Below, piece after piece: positions 3,812 through 28,713 of a stretch of DNA of 64,000 bases (positions within the stretch are counted from its first letter, which is position 1; every line of letters starts with the position of its first letter). Both the position numbers and the translations under genes were made by a program. The stretch comes from Anaerolineales bacterium (GTDB lineage Bacteria; Chloroflexota; Anaerolineae; Anaerolineales; Villigracilaceae), in the NCBI GenBank assembly GCA_030834895.1, contig JAUQXA010000070.1, positions 108,033-172,032 on the forward strand, given 5' to 3'. The notes under the pieces were generated by a model. It did no database searches, was not told where the DNA came from, and saw only the letters and a program-made list of their open reading frames with translations.

Positions 3812-5623
3812 ATGGCATTGGTCGGCTTACAGGATGTGAGCCTCGGCTTTGGGGGACCGAGGCTTTTCGATGGCATCAACCTCCAGATCGAGCAGGGCGA
3901 GCGGGTGGGGTTGCTTGGGCGTAACGGCGCGGGCAAATCCACACTGCTCAAACTGGTCAACGGGGATTTTTCTCCACACGGCGGGGCGGTCTCGCGTCAG
4001 CAAAATTTGCGCTCGGCTTATCTTCCGCAGGAAGTCCCCGTGGACGTGACGGGCAAAGTCTTCGACATCGTCGCGGGCGGATTGGATTCGCCGCACGTCC
4101 ACGACGAAGTCCACTGGCAGGGACAGCTTCAAGTGGAGCAGGTCATCTCGCGCATGATGCTGGATGGGGATGCCCGCTTCGAGACTCTGTCCGCGGGGAT
4201 GAAGCGCCGCGTGATGCTCGCCCGAGGGTTGGTCCGCGACCCTGAGCTTCTTCTCCTCGACGAGCCGACCAACCACCTCGATATCGCCTCCATTGACTGG
4301 CTCGAAGGTTTTCTCAAACGCTGGGGAGGCACGCTCTTGTTCGTGACGCATGACCGCGTCTTCCTGCAAAAACTCACCACCCGCATCATCGAACTGGATC
4401 GTGGTCAACTCTACGATTGGGATTGCAGCTACACCACCTTCCTCGAACGGCGCGAAGCCATGCTCAGCGCCGAGGCGGAACAGAACGTCCTCTTCGACAA
4501 AAAGCTGGCGCAGGAGGAAGCCTGGATTCGCAAAGGCATCGAAGCGCGGCGCACGCGCAACGAGGGACGGGTGCGCGCGCTCAAACGTCTGCGCGAACAA
4601 CGGCAGGAACGACGCGAACGCCCTGGAAAAATCAAGATGCAGATTCAAGCCGACAAGCGTTCGGGCAAGCTGGTCATCGAAGCGGAGAACGTCAGCTACG
4701 CGTTTGGTGACAAGCCCATCGTCAGCGACTTCACCACCACGATTCAACGCGGCGACAAGATTGGTATCATCGGACCGAACGGCTCTGGCAAGACGACCTT
4801 GCTGCGGTTGCTGGTCGGCGAGTTGACGCCGCAAAGCGGCGCGGTGGAACACGGCACGAACCTGCAAATCTCCTACTTCGACCAGCTCCGCGCCCAACTC
4901 GACGAAAGCAAGTCCGTGCTGGATAACGTCGGGCAGGGACGGGACAGCATCACGGTCAACGGCAAGGTGCGCAACATCAACGCCTACCTCGAAGATTTTC
5001 TCTTTACCAAAGAGCGGATCAACGCACCCATCACCGCCCTCTCTGGCGGCGAGCGCAACCGTCTCATGCTGGCTCGTCTGCTGGCTCAACCTGCCAACCT
5101 GCTCGTCCTCGATGAACCCACCAACGATCTCGACGTGGAAACACTGGAAGTCCTCGAAGAACTTTTGCTCGAATACGAGGGCACGCTGTTGATGGTCAGT
5201 CACGACCGCGCCTTCCTCAACAACATCGTCACCAGCACGATGTCCCTCGATGGCAGCGGACGTGTGACCGAAACTGTCGGCGGCTATGACGATTGGCAGA
5301 GTCAGAACCAGCAGTCAGCGAGGTCTGAGTCCAAGCCGCGCAAAGCAACCGTCAGCGAGACGCAGGCTGAGTCCGCGCCGAAGAAATTAAGTTACAAGGA
5401 ACAACGCGCGCTCGAATCCCAAAAGAAGGAACTGGCTGAACTTCCCCGACGCATCGAAAAACTCGAAACCGACATCCATGCTCTGACTGTTGAGATGGCT
5501 TCCCCGTCGTTTTATCAACGAGACAGCACCGAGATCACGCGAGTTGCCAATCAATTGAAAGAGATGCAAGATGAGTTAACGCAGGAATATCACAGGTGGG
5601 AAGAGTTGGAAAATAAATTGTAG
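3812..5623 (+). CDS. ABC-F family ATPase, Uup-like (two ABC domains plus C-terminal coiled coil)
   Basis: two Walker A (GRNGAGKST, GPNGSGKTT), two signature motifs (LSAGMKRR, LSGGERNR), C-terminal coiled coil. Confidence 0.93.
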   Translation: MALVGLQDVSLGFGGPRLFDGINLQIEQGERVGLLGRNGAGKSTLLKLVNGDFSPHGGAVSRQQNLRSAYLPQEVPVDVTGKVFDIVAGGLDSPHVHDEVHWQGQLQVEQVISRMMLDGDARFETLSAGMKRRVMLARGLVRDPELLLLDEPTNHLDIASIDWLEGFLKRWGGTLLFVTHDRVFLQKLTTRIIELDRGQLYDWDCSYTTFLERREAMLSAEAEQNVLFDKKLAQEEAWIRKGIEARRTRNEGRVRALKRLREQRQERRERPGKIKMQIQADKRSGKLVIEAENVSYAFGDKPIVSDFTTTIQRGDKIGIIGPNGSGKTTLLRLLVGELTPQSGAVEHGTNLQISYFDQLRAQLDESKSVLDNVGQGRDSITVNGKVRNINAYLEDFLFTKERINAPITALSGGERNRLMLARLLAQPANLLVLDEPTNDLDVETLEVLEELLLEYEGTLLMVSHDRAFLNNIVTSTMSLDGSGRVTETVGGYDDWQSQNQQSARSESKPRKATVSETQAESAPKKLSYKEQRALESQKKELAELPRRIEKLETDIHALTVEMASPSFYQRDSTEITRVANQLKEMQDELTQEYHRWEELENKL

Positions 5624-20368: not shown

Positions 20369-23300
20369 ATGTCCGACCATTTATTTCGCGGCACACTCGA
20401 AGAACTCGACCCCGACGTTTACGAACTGACCCAGCTCGAAGCGGAGCGTCAGGCTCGTAAGTTGATTTTGATCCCATCCGAAAGCCAGGCTCCGCTTGCG
20501 GTGCGTGATGCGATGGGATCGGCTTTCCAGAATATCTACGCCGAAGGTTATCCCAACGAGACGACCCGCTTCCAGACCCAGGAGGAAATCCTGGACTATG
20601 CTTGCCAGTTGACCCATTACCGCCGCTATGCGGACCCGCGTTATTACAAGGGAGTCGAGTATGCCGACCTGATCGAGTCGCTGGCAATCCGCCGCTGCGC
20701 CGAAGCATTCGCCGCCAACGGCATCAGCGCGGACCAGATCTCCGTCAACGTGCAGGCGCTTTCGGGCGGACCTGCCAACAACGCCGTGTACCACGCCCTC
20801 GTCAAGCCCGGCGATACGGTGATGGGCATGAACCTCTTCTACGGCGGACATCTCTCCCACGGCTCCCCGGTCAACCGCTCGGGCAAATACTTCAACATCG
20901 TCCCCTACACCATCGACCCCGTGACCCAGCAGATCGATTACGACGCCGTGATGGCGCTGGCAAAGGAACACAAGCCGAAGATGATCATCGCGGGCTACTC
21001 CTCCTACCCGTGGATTCCCGACTGGAAGAAATACCGCGAGATCGCCAACGCGGTGGGCGCCTACCTGCTGGCAGACATCGCCCACATCGGCGGATTGGTG
21101 GCGGCGGGAGTCGTCCCCTCGCCCATCGGTTACGCCGACGTCATCACCTCGACCACGCACAAGACCCTGCACGGTCCGCGCGGCGCGATCATCATGACCA
21201 CCGACAAGGAACTGGGAAAGCTGATCGACAAGGCGGTCTTCCCCGGCGAACAGGGCGGACCTCACGTCCACATCTTTGCCGCGCTCGCGCTGACCTTCAA
21301 GCTGGCGCGCACGCCCGAGTTCAAGGTCTTGCAGGAGCAGACGATCAAAAACGCCGTCGCCATGGCAGACCAGCTCAAGAAACGCGGACTCACCGTCCCC
21401 TACGGCGGGACGAACTGCCACATGCTCAACATTGATTGCCGCACGATCAAGTCGCCCGACGGCACGACCCTCTCCGGCGACCGCGCTGTGCGCATCCTCG
21501 ATTTGGTGGGCATCGTCGCCAACCGCAACACCATCCCCGGCGACGCCATCGCCCTTGACCCGTCGGGTGTGCGCATCGGCACCCCGTGGATCACCCAGCG
21601 TGGATTCGACGAAACCAAATGTCGCCAACTTGCAGACATCATCGCCGACGTGTTGCTTGCCGCCGCGCCGCACCGCATCGAAGTCCCCAACGTCAAGCGC
21701 ACCAAGCGCCGCGCCAAGGTGGATTTCAACATCCTCGAAGAAGCGCGCTTGAAGGTTCGCGCAATGGCTGAATCCGCCGGCGTGGATTTCAAACCCACGA
21801 CTCACGGCTATCCTCATTTCTTCTACGTGGACGACAAGTCCAGCGGCGTCTTCGAAATCTACGGCTTCCGCGTCCGCCAATTTTTGAACTACACCCTCAC
21901 CAGCGACATCTCCGCGCTCAAAGCTGGCGACACGCAAGCGACCAAAGTCATCACCCCGCGCGGCGAAGTGACCGGCGCACTGACCTGCGTCGACTTGACC
22001 CACTTCCGCTTGAGCGTCCCAGCCGAACAGGGCGGACTCGTCGGCACCTGGCTGCGCGACCACTCCGACGGCTACACCTCCGTCAGGTTGGATGGTCAAC
22101 CCGATTATTCGCCGGTCCACATCCCCGGCTTGGTCGTCGTCGCGGACTCGAAGGAGAAACCCGCTAAAGCCAAGGGTGAACCCGTCAGCGACACCAAACC
22201 TTTCTACATCGGAATCAGCAGCGGGACCGGGAAGGAGCTCCCCAGCTTCCAGTGGGAGGAGAAGGAATCGCCCCTACGCCGCACGGCTCTTTATGAAGTC
22301 CACAAGGGAGCGGGCGCGAAGATCATCCCGTTCGCGGGTTGGGAAATGCCCGTTTGGTATTCGTCTGTTTTGGAGGAGCATCTCGCCACCCGTCAGGCGG
22401 CGGGACTCTTCGACGTCTCGCACATGGGCGTGTATCACATCGAAGGCGCGGACGCAGCCGCCTTCCTCGACAGCGTGGTCAGCAACGACGCCGGCAAACT
22501 GCGCCCCGGCAACTCGCTCTACACCCACTTCCTGACCCCCGACGCGAAGGTCATCGACGACACCATCATCTATCGCCGCGCCGACGACAAATATCTTATG
22601 GTGGTCAACGCGTCGAACGATGACAAGGACCGCACGTGGCTCGAAGCTGTCCGCGATGGCAAGGTGAAGGTGGACAACGCCCGCCCCTGGGCGCGGACCT
22701 TCGGCTACGAAGCCGTCATCCGCAACCTGCGCGACCCGAAAGCTGGTCCCGACATGCGGGTGGATATCGCCCTGCAAGGACCGCGCAGCACCGACATTCT
22801 GCTTGCCCTCGGTGTGGATGACATGAACCGCCGCAACATCCGCGCCTTGAAGCGCACCCAACTCTGCGACGCCAAAGTTGGGACAAAGGAAAACGGCATC
22901 AGCGAACCCTTCGATCTGATCGTCTCGCGCACCGGCTACACCGGCGAGAAGGTGGCGTATGAGTTGTTCGTCCACCCCGAACGCGCCGTGGAATTCTGGC
23001 AGGCGTTGATGCGGGTTGGAGCAAAGATGGGAATCAAAGCCATTGGTCTGGGCGCGCGCGACTCACTGCGCACCGAGGCGGGACTCCCGCTCTATGGTCA
23101 CGAGATGGGCGACGGCTCGGGCAAGTTCGGTCAGCCCGATCTGGGCGTCGGCGATAGCGGATTTGGCGGCTACGTCAAATACTACAAGCCGTGGTTCATC
23201 GGGCGTGATGCGCTCATCGCAAATGAGGAAAAGCGCAAGGGTGTGGTGGTCCGCTTCCGTTTTGCGGAGAAGGGCGTGCGCATGGCTCACAACGGCGACC

Positions 23301-23536
23301 CCGTGCTCGACAAGCGCGGCAAGGTCATCGGCTGGGTGACATCCTGCGCCGTGGACGCCGAAGGCTATCTGACCGGTCAGGCTTACGTCGAGTTGAAGTC
23401 CGCTGAAATCGGCACGCAGATCGCGGTCTATCAGTCCGCGCCCAAGGATGCCAGCAAGGCTCCCGCCGAGTTGAAGAGCGGTGACAAGGTCAACCTGCCC
23501 ACCCCGGCGGTCGTCGTCAGTCGTTTCCCGATGTAA
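20369..23536 (+). CDS. fusion of serine hydroxymethyltransferase (N-term) and aminomethyltransferase GcvT (C-term)
   Basis: SHMT PLP-Lys motif ITSTTHKTLHGPRGA, LIPSES; GcvT LFDVSHMGVYHIEGADAAAFLDSVVSND, ISRTGYTGE-like VSRTGYTGEKVAYELFV, GLGARDSLRTEAGLPLYGHEM. Confidence 0.93.
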   Translation: MSDHLFRGTLEELDPDVYELTQLEAERQARKLILIPSESQAPLAVRDAMGSAFQNIYAEGYPNETTRFQTQEEILDYACQLTHYRRYADPRYYKGVEYADLIESLAIRRCAEAFAANGISADQISVNVQALSGGPANNAVYHALVKPGDTVMGMNLFYGGHLSHGSPVNRSGKYFNIVPYTIDPVTQQIDYDAVMALAKEHKPKMIIAGYSSYPWIPDWKKYREIANAVGAYLLADIAHIGGLVAAGVVPSPIGYADVITSTTHKTLHGPRGAIIMTTDKELGKLIDKAVFPGEQGGPHVHIFAALALTFKLARTPEFKVLQEQTIKNAVAMADQLKKRGLTVPYGGTNCHMLNIDCRTIKSPDGTTLSGDRAVRILDLVGIVANRNTIPGDAIALDPSGVRIGTPWITQRGFDETKCRQLADIIADVLLAAAPHRIEVPNVKRTKRRAKVDFNILEEARLKVRAMAESAGVDFKPTTHGYPHFFYVDDKSSGVFEIYGFRVRQFLNYTLTSDISALKAGDTQATKVITPRGEVTGALTCVDLTHFRLSVPAEQGGLVGTWLRDHSDGYTSVRLDGQPDYSPVHIPGLVVVADSKEKPAKAKGEPVSDTKPFYIGISSGTGKELPSFQWEEKESPLRRTALYEVHKGAGAKIIPFAGWEMPVWYSSVLEEHLATRQAAGLFDVSHMGVYHIEGADAAAFLDSVVSNDAGKLRPGNSLYTHFLTPDAKVIDDTIIYRRADDKYLMVVNASNDDKDRTWLEAVRDGKVKVDNARPWARTFGYEAVIRNLRDPKAGPDMRVDIALQGPRSTDILLALGVDDMNRRNIRALKRTQLCDAKVGTKENGISEPFDLIVSRTGYTGEKVAYELFVHPERAVEFWQALMRVGAKMGIKAIGLGARDSLRTEAGLPLYGHEMGDGSGKFGQPDLGVGDSGFGGYVKYYKPWFIGRDALIANEEKRKGVVVRFRFAEKGVRMAHNGDPVLDKRGKVIGWVTSCAVDAEGYLTGQAYVELKSAEIGTQIAVYQSAPKDASKAPAELKSGDKVNLPTPAVVVSRFPM

Positions 23537-23587: not shown

Positions 23588-23613
23588 TTTCTTTGATAAC
23601 GGAGGCATTGTCC

Positions 23614-24507
23614 ATGAAGGTCGTTTGGCTGGGATGGGAAGAGATCTACACTACCCGCCGGGTGCAAGAGGCGGCGCAGGCACAGGGGCTGGAGCTGGTC
23701 GTTTGCAATATTCACGATGTCAATTTCGATATCGAGGGGCAAAGGGCCAATGTCTGCGGCCTGGGGCAAAACCTGCTGGAAACCTGCGATGGGCTGGTGG
23801 TGCGGACCTTCTACCCGTACATCTCCGAAGCTCTGACCGTTGCCCGCCTGTTTCACGATGCGGGCAAAGTTGTCATAGACAAAGGTCTGACGGACGAAGG
23901 CTATGCCGTCAGCAAAATGCATGACTATTTGGTGATGGCTGAGCATGGCGTGCCCTGCCCGCGCACCTGGCAGCTCTTCAATCCCATCCAGGTGGAGGCG
24001 CTGGCGGAGCGACTGACCTATCCATGTGTACTGAAAGGCGTCCACGGCGCGCGCGGCGAGCATACCTACCTGATTCACAACACCGAGCAGCTCCACCGCC
24101 GCCTGTGGCGCTATCCCTACGGCGAGTTGATGTTACAGGAGTACCTGCCTGCCGACGAAGACTACCGCGTGATGGTGGTCGGCTACCGCGCGCTGCCGGT
24201 CATGGTCAGCCGCAAACCGTCCAAAGGCGACTTCCGCACCAACTACTCCCTCGGCGGACGGTTCATCCGCCACGACCTGACCGAGTTCCCCGCCTTCCAA
24301 TCCCTCGCGGAGAGTGCCGCCCGCGCCCTGCGCCGCGAATTCACCGCCGTGGACATCCGCCTCAAAGGCGACCAACCGCTCGTGCTCGAAGTCAACCGCC
24401 AGCCCGATTTCGAAGGCTTCGAGCGCGCCACGAAGTTCGACGTGGCGACGGAGGTGGTGAGGTATATTTGTCAGAGGGTGGGGGGGGAAGTGAGAGGGAT
24501 GCACTGA
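23614..24507 (+). CDS. ATP-grasp (RimK-like) family protein
   Basis: YPCVLKGVHGARGEHTYLI, LMLQEYLPADEDYRVMVVG, LVLEVNRQPDFEGFERAT. Confidence 0.85.
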   Translation: MKVVWLGWEEIYTTRRVQEAAQAQGLELVVCNIHDVNFDIEGQRANVCGLGQNLLETCDGLVVRTFYPYISEALTVARLFHDAGKVVIDKGLTDEGYAVSKMHDYLVMAEHGVPCPRTWQLFNPIQVEALAERLTYPCVLKGVHGARGEHTYLIHNTEQLHRRLWRYPYGELMLQEYLPADEDYRVMVVGYRALPVMVSRKPSKGDFRTNYSLGGRFIRHDLTEFPAFQSLAESAARALRREFTAVDIRLKGDQPLVLEVNRQPDFEGFERATKFDVATEVVRYICQRVGGEVRGMH

Positions 24508-24541
24508 TCACCTCTATGCCTAACCATTTACAATTCCCGTC

Positions 24542-25132
24542 ATGGTCAAATTCGATCCAAAGATTCATCATCGCCACTCCGTCCGCTTGAAGAGATATGA
24601 TTATTCTCAAGTAGGTGGATATTTTGTCACCATCGTTACGTGGCAAAGGGAATTTTTGTTTGGAGCAATAGAAAATAAGGAAATGAAATTAAGCCGTTAT
24701 GGGCAAATCGTTCAGAAATGGTGGGGCGAAATTCCAATCCATTTTCCAAATGTGGAAACAGGCGCATTTGCAATAATGCCAAACCATATTCACGGGATTA
24801 TTTTCATTTTGGGATGTGGAGATATCGAAATTGTGCGTGGTAGGGGCGCGGTCCTCGCGCCCGATGATAATGTGTCTCATGATACACAGGGCGGGGAGAC
24901 CCCGCCCCTACGGGTGCCAACATTGGGACAGATCATAGCGTATTTTAAATATCAATCCACGAAGGAAATGAACATGGTGGAGAATACGGGCACGGTTACA
25001 AAATTTTGGCAGCGTAATTATTATGAGCACGTCATTCGGGATGAAAAGGATCTGCAGAACAAAACGGGGTACGTCGAAGCCAATCCGCTTTTGTGGGATG
25101 AGGATGATGAAAACCCTGTCAACTGGACTTAA
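24542..25132 (+). mobile_element. REP-associated Y1-type transposase (RAYT/TnpA_REP family)
   Basis: GGYFVTIVTWQREFLFG, AIMPNHIHGIIFI (HUH motif), QRNYYEHVIRDEKDL catalytic Tyr region. Confidence 0.9.
24840..24911. repeat. 72-bp palindromic repeat (two sub-hairpins, GTAGGGGC...GCCCCTAC ends) inside the RAYT ORF
   Basis: direct reading; same termini as the 28-bp palindromes at 5620 and 13214. Confidence 0.85.
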
Positions 25133-25168
25133 CAACTCGAATTCCCTTTTCTTGCGATAAACTCTCGT

Positions 25169-25364
25169 CTTCCAATCCCTTGCGGAGGAAGCCGCCCGCG
25201 CCCTGCGCCGCGAATTCACCGCCGTGGACATCCGCCTCAAAGGTGACCAGCCGATGGCGCTCGAAGTCAACCGTCAGCCTGACTTCGAAGGCTTCGAACG
25301 CGCCACAAAGTTCGATGTGGCGAGTGAGGTGGTGAGGTATATTTGTCAGAGGGTGGGGGAGTAA
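25169..25364 (+). pseudogene. truncated second copy of the ATP-grasp gene 3' end, with stop codon
   Basis: FQSLAEEAARALRREFTAVDIRLKGDQPMALEVNRQPDFEGFERATKFDVASEVVRYICQRVGE* near-identical to 24294..24486; in-frame stop just upstream. Confidence 0.92.
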
Positions 25365-25406
25365 ACGAAGCGAAAATATAAATGGGATTCTGTTGGAAAT
25401 TGGCTC

Positions 25407-25931
25407 TCATGGAATAATAATATAGAAGCCAGAATTAGAAAGGTCGCGTAATAATATACGTACCTCCTTATAAGTTCTGTCAATTTTTATTCTGTCAGCC
25501 GCATTTGGCCAATTCATATGTCCAACAATATTTCTAGGCAAATGAATTTGCTCAAGTTTAATTATCCATCTATCAATATCGGGAATTATTGGAACAAAAA
25601 GGTTGCGTTGTGCTGAAATTATCTTGCTTAAATCACTTAAGTACAAATAATATATGTCATGTGATCCTGGAAGAGTGCTTCCAGGCTGGCTTAAGTAACG
25701 ATTTTTAGCCTTTTGAATCTCACTGTTCTTTTGGGGATTAATTACATATGTCCACCAGTTAGCGTTGATTTGAACAGTGAGTATTGAATGTATTATGACG
25801 CGAAATGAATTTTCTATTGCGTACAATCTCCAATACACTGTCCTCCCAATATATTTACCAGAATCGCTAACTCTATTTATGCTAAAAGGCAGTGTTCTAA
25901 AATCAACTGGGACCGGCATAAAGTTTATCAC
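25407..25931 (-). CDS. putative HEPN-domain protein (Swt1-like?), candidate RNase
   Basis: 174 aa; RLYAIENSFRVIIHSIL...NANWW... and C-terminal LPRNIVGHMN (RN-x3-H); 4-nt GTGA overlap with upstream ORF. Confidence 0.65.
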   Translation of the reverse strand: MINFMPVPVDFRTLPFSINRVSDSGKYIGRTVYWRLYAIENSFRVIIHSILTVQINANWWTYVINPQKNSEIQKAKNRYLSQPGSTLPGSHDIYYLYLSDLSKIISAQRNLFVPIIPDIDRWIIKLEQIHLPRNIVGHMNWPNAADRIKIDRTYKEVRILLRDLSNSGFYIIIP

Positions 25932-26158
25932 TCCCCTGAGGTCTTTTTTGAGGCTTTCTTTGAGGTCTTTCCTTTACGTGCTTCATAAAGCATTTGTGAG
26001 ACAACAGCAGCCGTAGTCTCTAATAGATTCGCGATTTCAATATTTGAGAAACCTGCTAAATTTAACTGGATTGCTTTCTCGCGTTGCGATGAATCCTTTA
26101 GTTGGTTTAAAAGAATTAACGCAAGCAGGCGTTCTGAGCGCTCTTCAAGATTACTCAT
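25928..26158 (-). CDS. small helix-turn-helix protein (fourth HTH ORF of operon)
   Basis: REKAIQLNLAGFSNIEIANLLETTAAVVSQMLYEARKGK; 8-nt overlap with 26151..26393. Confidence 0.8.
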   Translation of the reverse strand: MSNLEERSERLLALILLNQLKDSSQREKAIQLNLAGFSNIEIANLLETTAAVVSQMLYEARKGKTSKKASKKTSGE

Positions 26159-26393
26159 TCCTGCCGTCCTTCCGATTTTTTGATGGCTTTGCGCGCAGGT
26201 TAGATGTTAGAGTTCTCACAACTGTAACATCAACATTTAGAACTTCAGATATTGTTTTATTGTCCAAGCCTGCGAACTTCAGCGAGCGTGCCCCTTCGGT
26301 AATCGTATTCTTTTCTGATACAAGTTGTAAGGCAAGTATTCTTAATATTTGGTCTAGGCGTTCAAGGATTTGCTCTTCAGTCGATGTAGCCAT
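26151..26393 (-). CDS. small helix-turn-helix protein (third HTH ORF of operon)
   Basis: ITEGARSLKFAGLDNKTISEVLNVDVTVVRTLTSNLRAK; SD AGGAGA upstream. Confidence 0.8.
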   Translation of the reverse strand: MATSTEEQILERLDQILRILALQLVSEKNTITEGARSLKFAGLDNKTISEVLNVDVTVVRTLTSNLRAKPSKNRKDGRNE

Positions 26394-26395
26394 AA

Positions 26396-26629
26396 TTATC
26401 TCCTAATCGTCTGCTCAACAGGTTTATTCTTGCTTTGCTGGCGAGCGTTCCGGACAGACTGCACAGCAGAACCGCAGATTATAGCGATATCTTCGTCTGA
26501 CAGTCCAAATCTGTCGAGAATGTTGACCTTCTCTATTAAGTTGTCTGCACCCTTAATGCAAAGGTAGCCCAGCATAAGGATTTCAGGGCTTGTCTCGGAT
26601 GTTTTTGGTTTGGTTTTAATGTTAGCCAT
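26396..26629 (-). CDS. small helix-turn-helix protein (second HTH ORF of operon)
   Basis: IEKVNILDRFGLSDEDIAIICGSAVQSVRNARQQSKNK; SD GGGAGG upstream; 8-nt overlap with upstream ORF. Confidence 0.8.
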   Translation of the reverse strand: MANIKTKPKTSETSPEILMLGYLCIKGADNLIEKVNILDRFGLSDEDIAIICGSAVQSVRNARQQSKNKPVEQTIRR

Positions 26630-26837
26630 TATTACCTCCCTTTTTTAATTTTGACTTCAATGTCTTTATAACATCTGGATTTTTCCCACAAATCTTAGCC
26701 ATATCAGGATTGGAATAGCCAAGTTGAGTTAATACGGATATTTTCTTTTCAACCGTCACTAGATCCTTCGTGGCAATATATCCAAGCACCAAAGCAATAT
26801 CAACTGGCTGGGCCTTTTCGTTTTCCTTTGTTGCCAT
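26622..26837 (-). CDS. small helix-turn-helix protein (first HTH ORF of operon)
   Basis: VEKKISVLTQLGYSNPDMAKICGKNPDVIKTLKSKLKK; SD AGGAGG; start taken at MATKENE. Confidence 0.8.
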   Translation of the reverse strand: MATKENEKAQPVDIALVLGYIATKDLVTVEKKISVLTQLGYSNPDMAKICGKNPDVIKTLKSKLKKGGNNG

Positions 26838-26884
26838 TTGTCCTCCTACCATCCAAATCAAGAAATTGACAAGACGATATTGTA

Positions 26885-26913
26885 ACTATACCCTATATTT
26901 ATTTTAAGGACAA
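26885..26913 (-). promoter_or_regulatory. candidate sigma-70-type promoter for the HTH/HEPN operon
   Basis: minus strand TTGTCC - 17 bp - TATAGT, upstream of SD and ATG at 26837. Confidence 0.55.
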
Positions 26914-27070
26914 TATTTAATTATCTGCTCAGTCTAGTATATGGAAGTCGGCTGTGCCGACTCCGCCCGCAGGGCTTCCACGCGTAGCGCTGAGCGAGGG
27001 ATTTATCCGACCGTCCACGAATAGGGTCACGAATAATCGAATAAGGCGGCGATTGGTTAATTCGTGGTCC

Positions 27071-27126
27071 TAATTCGTGGATGGTTTCGGGTGCGGGGGA
27101 TTGGTCAACGGGGGAATGTCCGCGTG
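27071..27126. repeat. direct repeat copy 1 (TAATTCGTGGATGGTTTC...GTCAACGGGGGAATGTCCGCGTG)
   Basis: matches 28659..28713 with a few differences. Confidence 0.85.
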
Positions 27127-27138
27127 TTGGGGAGGGAA

Positions 27139-27483
27139 ATGCTAAATGAACTAAAGGATGAGGGTATAATTTCATCCATGCAACGAAAGAAGTTCAGGAT
27201 TCCGCGCAAAAAGATCACCGAATTTTGCAAACGCTGGAACGTGACAGAGTTTGCCATGTTCGGCTCCGTCCTGCGGGACGATTTTCGTCCCGACAGCGAT
27301 ATTGACGTGCTGGTCAGCATCGACCCCAGGGCGCATATCGGTCTCTTCGAACTCGCAGATATGAAAATCGAACTTCAAAACATATTCAAACGTCCCGTCG
27401 ACCTGGTGGAAAAAGAGGGACTCCGCAACCCGTACCGCAGGAAGGAAATTCTCCGCACGGCGCAGGTGGTCTATGCCGCATGA
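27139..27483 (+). CDS. MNT-type nucleotidyltransferase, putative antitoxin (MntA-like)
   Basis: FAMFGSVLRDDFRPDSDIDVLVSID (GSxxR...SDxD motif); alternative start at 27178. Confidence 0.88.
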   Translation: MLNELKDEGIISSMQRKKFRIPRKKITEFCKRWNVTEFAMFGSVLRDDFRPDSDIDVLVSIDPRAHIGLFELADMKIELQNIFKRPVDLVEKEGLRNPYRRKEILRTAQVVYAA

Positions 27484-27814
27484 CGAACAGGCGCAATCCT
27501 ACTTATGGGACATCCGCGAAGCCGCGCGTGAAATCAATGGATTTATGCACGGTGTCAAATTCCACGAGTTCGAAAAGAATAAAATGCTCCGTTATGCGGT
27601 GGAACGTCAATTACATGTGATTGGTGAAGCGGCTGTCCACATCTCCCCGCAATATCGCAAGGAACACCCCGAGGTCAATTGGACAAGGCTGGTCGAACTG
27701 CGCAATATCCTTGCTCATGAATATGGAGAAACCCTTACCAACCGTGTCTGGCTGGCGGCAACAGAGGGAATCCCTGAGGTGCTGGCTATTTTGGTGAAGT
27801 TATTGCCAGATTAG
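27473..27814 (+). CDS. HEPN-domain toxin (HepT/DUF86-like)
   Basis: LVELRNILAHEYGETL (Rx4HxY); overlaps the MNT gene by 11 nt. Confidence 0.9.
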   Translation: MPHDEQAQSYLWDIREAAREINGFMHGVKFHEFEKNKMLRYAVERQLHVIGEAAVHISPQYRKEHPEVNWTRLVELRNILAHEYGETLTNRVWLAATEGIPEVLAILVKLLPD

Positions 27815-27869
27815 AAAGTGGATTAAAAAAAACGTCTAAAACCACAACCAATTTTAGAGGTAGGTAACC

Positions 27870-28637
27870 ATGAAAACTCTTCGAACTCTCACTATATTGG
27901 GTGGTCTGGTCATTCTGGCGCTTGCAATCGGCTTTATCTTTCAACTTCGGCTGGTCACCAGCTTGTGGCCCTGGCCCGACGGGCGGCTTTCATACCTGTT
28001 CATCGGCTCCATTCTGGCTGCGGTCAGTGTCGCCGCTCTCTGGATCGGGTGGACAGGGGAATTTGGCGCGCTCCCCGCGGGCTCGCTCAATGTGCTGGTC
28101 ATCGCAGCGACCACGGCAGTTTACTTCTTTCAACTTGTCTTGCAGGGAGGTCGCCCGGAAATGATCCCGTTTGGAGTTGTAGCTTTGGTCTCCGTGGTCG
28201 CCAGCGGCGCTGCATTTCTCTGGAGCCGACGAATTCCGCTTAACGACTCACGTCCCATGCCGTTGTTGGTGCGAGTCTCCTTTGGGGTTTTCATTGTCTC
28301 ATTGATTATGGCAGGCGGCGCTTTGGCCTTCAGGATACCGGTCTTCCCCTGGGCGTTGAACCCCGACTCATCCGTCATCTTTGGCTGTATCTTCATCGGG
28401 GATGCCTTCTATTTCCTGTACGGTCTTTTGTATCCCCGCTGGCATAATGCCGCCGGTCAACTGCTGAGCTTCCTCGCATACGACCTTGTCCTGATCGGTC
28501 CCTTCCTTTTGCTGTTCGAGACAGTGAAACCCGAATACATGCTCAATCTGATCGTGTATGTGGCGGTGCTGGTCTACAGCGGCGGGCTTGCGGTCTATTT
28601 TCTGTTCGTCAACTCCCAGACCCGCCTTGGCTCCTGA
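27870..28637 (+). CDS. hypothetical multi-pass membrane protein
   Basis: 255-aa ORF with many hydrophobic segments. Confidence 0.75.
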   Translation: MKTLRTLTILGGLVILALAIGFIFQLRLVTSLWPWPDGRLSYLFIGSILAAVSVAALWIGWTGEFGALPAGSLNVLVIAATTAVYFFQLVLQGGRPEMIPFGVVALVSVVASGAAFLWSRRIPLNDSRPMPLLVRVSFGVFIVSLIMAGGALAFRIPVFPWALNPDSSVIFGCIFIGDAFYFLYGLLYPRWHNAAGQLLSFLAYDLVLIGPFLLLFETVKPEYMLNLIVYVAVLVYSGGLAVYFLFVNSQTRLGS

Positions 28638-28658
28638 GTTATGCATTGCTGATAGTTG

Positions 28659-28713
28659 TAATTCGTGGATGATTTCTGATTCCGGGGTATTGTCAACGGG
28701 GAATGTCCGCGTG
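28659..28713. repeat. direct repeat copy 2 of 27071..27126
   Basis: TAATTCGTGGATGATTTC...GTCAACGGGGAATGTCCGCGTG. Confidence 0.85.

Follow-up and report, generated by a model that had tools for sequence, protein, structure and literature searches.

Described HEPN and TIR systems and the present locus

Many bacterial immune systems act through HEPN or TIR effectors, whose switching is often obscure. We analysed a locus in a 64,000-nucleotide stretch of an Anaerolineales genome (family Villigracilaceae), hereafter the window, in which four small HTH-like genes are followed by a gene for a HEPN effector. Known toxins belong to the HEPN family, and the window protein shares with the Swt1-like/Abi2 effectors the HEPN group, the R-x4-H motif and conflict-type neighbourhoods (Anantharaman et al. 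2013, PMC3710099). In its passages on Swt1/Abi2 HEPNs and HTH domains, that survey gives AAA+, helicase, PIN and TM partners, whereas the window HEPN follows an array of separate small HTH genes. PDC-M34, a PADLOC candidate system that pairs DUF5343 (M34A) with a Swt1-like HEPN (M34B), is also a small operon with the effector last, and its M34B model matches the window HEPN. In contrast, the window operon has four mini-HTH genes (one to four in relatives) instead of DUF5343, its genes match no M34A model, and the adjacent genes encode a REP-type transposase and MntA/HepT. Since DUF5343 is missing, the operon is not PDC-M34 as paired by PADLOC.

HepT/MntA (HEPN-MNT) toxin-antitoxin systems likewise combine a HEPN RNase with a small partner, and one such pair adjoins the operon at 27064-27814. 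However, this partner is a nucleotidyltransferase, the HEPN belongs to a different family, and the pair is transcribed divergently from the operon and is absent from the corresponding locus of a second genome of the genus, G112. CAP12/Pycsar TIR effectors (PF10137) are known with cyclic-nucleotide synthases. In one relative of our locus (G261), such a TIR domain occurs with an HTH and with the adaptor domain seen in relatives of the HEPN; no cyclic-nucleotide synthase was noticed on its contig, although at 3.8 kb this is too short to rule one out. Our search of open-access journal papers found nothing on PDC-M34, on DUF5343 or on a multi-HTH plus HEPN layout. We found no described system organised in this way, in agreement with an earlier reading of the window made from the letters alone (the sequence-only reading). 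The effector family and HEPN conflict systems are already known; the multi-HTH layout appears undescribed, and the multi-HTH operon has a fair chance of being a new modular class.

Layout of the operon

The operon lies on the minus strand at 26837-25407 and comprises five genes in about 1.4 kb, four small HTH genes and then the HEPN gene. Its features are as follows.

26622-26837, minus strand: HTH1, 71 aa; ATG start; SD GGAGGA; orthologue in G112 (L002:2690-2908); HTH1-type copy in G406
26396-26629, minus strand: HTH2, 77 aa; SD GGAGGT; HTH2-type copies in G112, G255, G831, G781 and G406
26151-26393, minus strand: HTH3, 80 aa; SD AGGAG; orthologue in G112
25928-26158, minus strand: HTH4, 76 aa; SD-like AAGGA; orthologue in G112
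25407-25919, minus strand: Swt1-like HEPN effector, probably 170 aa from ATG 25919 (174 aa from GTG 25931)
26913-26885, minus strand: possible promoter TTGTCC-17-TATAGT; weak; not conserved in G112

The HTH1/HTH2, HTH2/HTH3 and HTH3/HTH4 junctions are an 8-nt overlap, a 2-nt gap and an 8-nt overlap. These junctions, the coordinates and lengths of the ORFs, and the SD sequences before the first three HTH genes are as the sequence-only reading gave them; an SD-like sequence also precedes HTH4. That reading had further joined HTH4 to a 174-aa ORF through a 4-nt GTGA overlap, which is doubtful. At GTG 25931, GGGGA abuts the start codon with no spacer, making this start unlikely. At ATG 25919, in contrast, GGGGAG lies 11 nt before the start codon, and translation from here yields 170 aa, as many as in the G112 orthologue, so that the HEPN probably starts there, after an 8-nt gap.

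The promoter proposed earlier can be found in the sequence, but 25100-27900 contains 8 promoter-like sites in all (4.8 +/- 2.5 in shuffles), and the upstream region shows no conservation with G112. No inverted repeat of at least 8 nt was found upstream of the operon, comparison of the two sequences from the window and G112 revealed no conserved upstream block, and no operator-like element is evident. The GC content of the operon is 39%, compared to 62% for gcvT.

Paralogy, selection and fold of the small proteins

The four small proteins share only 18-25% pairwise identity. To each of them we applied a leave-one-out HMM, built from the three other paralogues and their G112 orthologues, and scored it on the window's 502 ORFs with a length of 40 aa or more. 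The left-out protein ranked directly after the profile members, at 22.5-30.5 bits (E 2.3e-6 to 1.3e-8), whereas the best of about 1950 scored shuffles reached 8.1-15.2 bits. No further ORF among the 502 reached E<1. These scores indicate that the four are true paralogues and bear out the mutual similarity that had been aligned by eye. Between the window and G112, amino-acid identity is 0.61-0.81 across all five genes, with pS of 0.72-0.86 and pN of 0.11-0.23. Because pS is near saturation while pN is this low in every gene, all five genes encode selected proteins, and the selection is purifying.

HTH1-4 gave weak sigma-region-4/LuxR-type profile matches, all below curated cut-offs, and the strongest sigma-region-4 similarity was that of HTH4. 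AF2 modelled HTH2 with four helices at a mean pLDDT of 79; the best Foldseek match of this model had an E of 0.64, and sigma r4, LuxR, TrpR and ParB types were among the top matches (E>0.6). A PDB sequence search with the HTHs returned designed repeats and sigma factors, and no PADLOC model matched the mini-HTHs at a meaningful score. The profile matches and the predicted helices of HTH2 suggest that the small proteins are HTH-like, as had been read from the letters. Together with the HEPN, all four are basic (pI 9.1-9.8), and their C-terminal tails are basic.

In the HTH tree, the HTH2-type copies of the window, G112, G255, G831, G781 and G406 (G406_b) form one group (support 96/97), and HTH1 falls with the other G406 copy (G406_a) inside a wider group (92/89). 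HTH3 and HTH4 are well supported only with their own G112 orthologues. G406 belongs to another family and carries both an HTH1-type and an HTH2-type copy beside a 168-aa HEPN. By this tree, the HTH1- and HTH2-type slots predate the split between the families. A recent tandem duplication of the HTHs was considered and rejected because these slots recur across families; for the same reason, the copies are to be regarded as specialised and not as newly duplicated.

The HEPN effector

The HEPN protein had no direct match in Pfam or NCBIfam. It matched PADLOC model PDC-M34B (E=1.3e-15), and hhalign aligned it to its relatives at 99.4% (E 4.5e-21), several of which exceed the cut-off of PF18731 (HEPN_Swt1). 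The catalytic motif R-x4-H reads RNIVGH; its R and H are invariant throughout the aligned relatives, as are E-N..R residues elsewhere in the alignment. The AF2 model, built from 6 sequences, is all-alpha (pLDDT 81.8). Foldseek gave it no significant match among PDB or viral structures, and a PDB sequence search with the protein returned nothing useful. The profile and alignment evidence upholds the earlier assignment to HEPN and places the protein in the Swt1-like group with the catalytic motif retained. It is likely an RNA-cutting toxin.

Linkage of the mini-HTHs to effector genes

A gene-neighbourhood search for tandem mini-HTHs beside HEPN genes, which the sequence-only reading had proposed, found relatives in which the linkage holds. 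G112 has four HTH genes and a HEPN gene in an order identical to that of the window. Searched alone over the 152 genomes of the family, the mini-HTH profile (E<=1e-6) revealed a patchy distribution: seven genomes carry mini-HTHs, and in all seven (7/7) these lie beside an effector gene, which encodes a HEPN in six and a different 231-aa protein in G764. Four of the seven carriers (G831, G781, G752 and G764) are absent from the profile's own sequences. In six of the ten carrier genomes searched with PF18731, the match was restricted to the HTH-adjacent gene; the other four, the window's included, have no PF18731 match.

Only strong matches were used. A class-wide tally of 133/299 (mini-HTH profile, E<=0.01) was discounted after inspection of six weak small-frame matches, which resemble HTHs of the ECF-sigma or LuxR type or unrelated regulators. 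Two phylum matches, in G151 and G275, resemble ECF sigma factors and were rejected, and a third, in G301, has no clear effector. A contig scan with a strict peptide pattern returned five loci only. Viral contigs scanned with the HEPN protein, the HEPN alignment and the HTH2-type alignment contained no relative, and none was found in phage records. Plasmids yielded one, a cyanobacterial HEPN without HTHs. This Swt1-like HEPN (L005 4680-5429) lies on a conjugative plasmid near ParB/partition genes and is followed by a WD-repeat gene, with no HTH gene adjacent.

HTH number and effector type vary among relatives

The 4:1 layout noticed at the outset is real in the window and G112, but it is only one version. 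G101 has three mini-HTHs and a 267-aa HEPN, G596 has two mini-HTHs, and G406 has two beside its short HEPN, which resembles that of the window. G255, G831 and G781 each combine a winged HTH with one mini-HTH, G752 has a 74-aa HTH and one mini-HTH, and G514 has two winged HTHs. One HEPN relative (L031) is paired with DUF5343 and lacks mini-HTHs.

The long HEPNs of relatives carry an N-terminal HTH-like domain, for which hhalign against the mini-HTHs gave 27% over 25 columns only. Because the window HEPN has no such adaptor domain, any docking of the HTHs onto it must differ from that in the long forms. The effector is also exchanged. In G261 (L101 1001-1891) a gene for an HTH of this type is followed by the same HTH-like N-terminal adaptor domain, here fused to a CAP12/Pycsar-type TIR (PF10137, E=3.8e-23, with the one in-frame stop that interrupts the gene read through as X), and in G383 a TIR fragment adjoins an HTH gene, so that the TIR evidence consists of one gene with an in-frame stop and one fragment.

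The operon occupies a gcvT-linked hotspot

In the window and G112 alike, the locus of the operon is bounded by gcvT and by a gene for a 255-aa membrane protein. It was found at the gcvT site in 2 of the 51 genus genomes searched for gcvT (these two); in G831, of the same genus, the HTH and HEPN operon is on a different contig from gcvT. G839, which is 96% identical over the gcvT stretch, has DUF4365, an MNT/HEPN pair, RHH and AbrB genes instead, and other sister genomes have DUF3800, HNH, Vsr-like or AbrB/PIN genes at this site (hotspot genes without a profile match were named from their sequence). A further MNT/HEPN pair occurs at the hotspot in G297. The operon behaves as an accessory defence or toxin-antitoxin gene set in a gcvT-linked hotspot. 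The idea of an AbiF-type RNA partner came from PMC12165695; an Rfam search over 24500-28700 gave nothing at E<=1, and such a partner therefore appears to be absent.

On the gcvT side of the window operon are a rimK-like gene and a transposase; the HepT/MntA pair is on the other side. A 199-nt remnant of a rimK-like 3' end (25166-25364; counterpart in the window 24291-24489) is 86-91% identical to the rimK ends of sister genomes. For the intact rimK-like copy (23593-24507), identity to sister rimK is about 82-83% over its length, as if a second rimK-like gene had been inserted together with the REP-type transposase (24542-25132). At 20369-23536, glyA and gcvT are apparently fused in one 1055-aa ORF, and open frames of similar length occur in most genus genomes.

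A heteromeric HTH set may control or aim the HEPN RNase

We propose, with a probability of about 0.5, that the operon is a toxin-type conflict module in which a heteromeric HTH set controls or aims the HEPN RNase. The four basic paralogues would come together by way of their N-terminal hydrophobic helices to form an adaptor, which would bind nucleic acid and hold or aim the HEPN enzyme. The enzyme would be freed or activated, probably upon invader nucleic acid or infection stress, and would then cut RNA and stop growth. That four selected, non-redundant HTHs accompany one RNase suggests either that a protein heteromer recognises nucleic acids combinatorially or that the antitoxin is unusually layered.

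The layered antitoxin is the less probable of these but a serious contender. The HTHs, being produced before the toxin, would here silence the HEPN by binding to it and would also repress the promoter; once one or more of the labile HTHs were lost, the toxin would be free, and no sensing of invader nucleic acid would be needed. As is usual for antitoxins and toxins, the small HTH genes come before the effector, probably with translational coupling; the hotspot abounds in toxin-antitoxin genes, HepT/MntA next door among them; and the HEPN family contains known toxins. However, a typical toxin-antitoxin pair joins an acidic antitoxin to a basic toxin, whereas the HTHs and the HEPN are all basic. 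Four diverged HTHs, all under selection, exceed the needs of any toxin-antitoxin system that we know of. Because, in addition, the slots are non-redundant, similar HTHs accompany TIR and other effectors, and no operator-like repeat is evident upstream, we modestly favour an adaptor or sensor role over that of a simple antitoxin. The occurrence of such an HTH and adaptor domain with TIR in G261 argues for general control or sensing rather than neutralisation of one particular toxin. Counting against the adaptor model are the HEPN relatives without mini-HTHs (L031 and the cyanobacterial plasmid), the sub-cut-off HTH matches, the Foldseek result for HTH2, the lack of a significant PDB or viral match for the HEPN model, the missing adaptor domain of the window HEPN, and a TIR record of one interrupted gene and one fragment.

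That the HTHs are transcription regulators which share the operon and neither touch nor steer the HEPN is improbable: their sigma-region-4/LuxR-like similarity would fit, but tight effector linkage repeated across families, conserved HTH slots, relatives whose effectors carry fused HTH-like domains and the lack of a conserved operator all speak against it. Slightly less probable still is a PDC-M34 variant in which the HTH genes have replaced DUF5343 in the same job. The match of the HEPN to M34B, whose M34A partner is DUF5343, invites this reading, yet no operon gene encodes DUF5343 and no M34A model matches the mini-HTHs.

The heteromeric HTH adaptor may extend beyond this operon. Slightly more tentatively than for the window itself, we suggest a modular defence class in which one to four small HTHs, with or without an effector adaptor domain, form a heteromeric nucleic-acid sensor for exchangeable effectors (Swt1-like HEPN RNase, CAP12-type TIR and other helical effectors), the window being the four-HTH, adaptor-free version. 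Combined with a TIR effector, the same HTH and adaptor parts would amount to a plug-in module for sensing in general.

Arrays of winged HTHs were also observed, three in G455 and at least two (117 and 126 aa) in G402, both arrays preceding a related effector (245 or 220 aa). At these loci (L110 1349-3200 and L111 2815-3958), the effectors carry a RNLVHPEKE or RTLVHPDKE stretch, with weak Abi_C similarity in one. L111 also contains, at 4386-5583, an HTH-like gene of 142 aa and an ORF of 258 aa.
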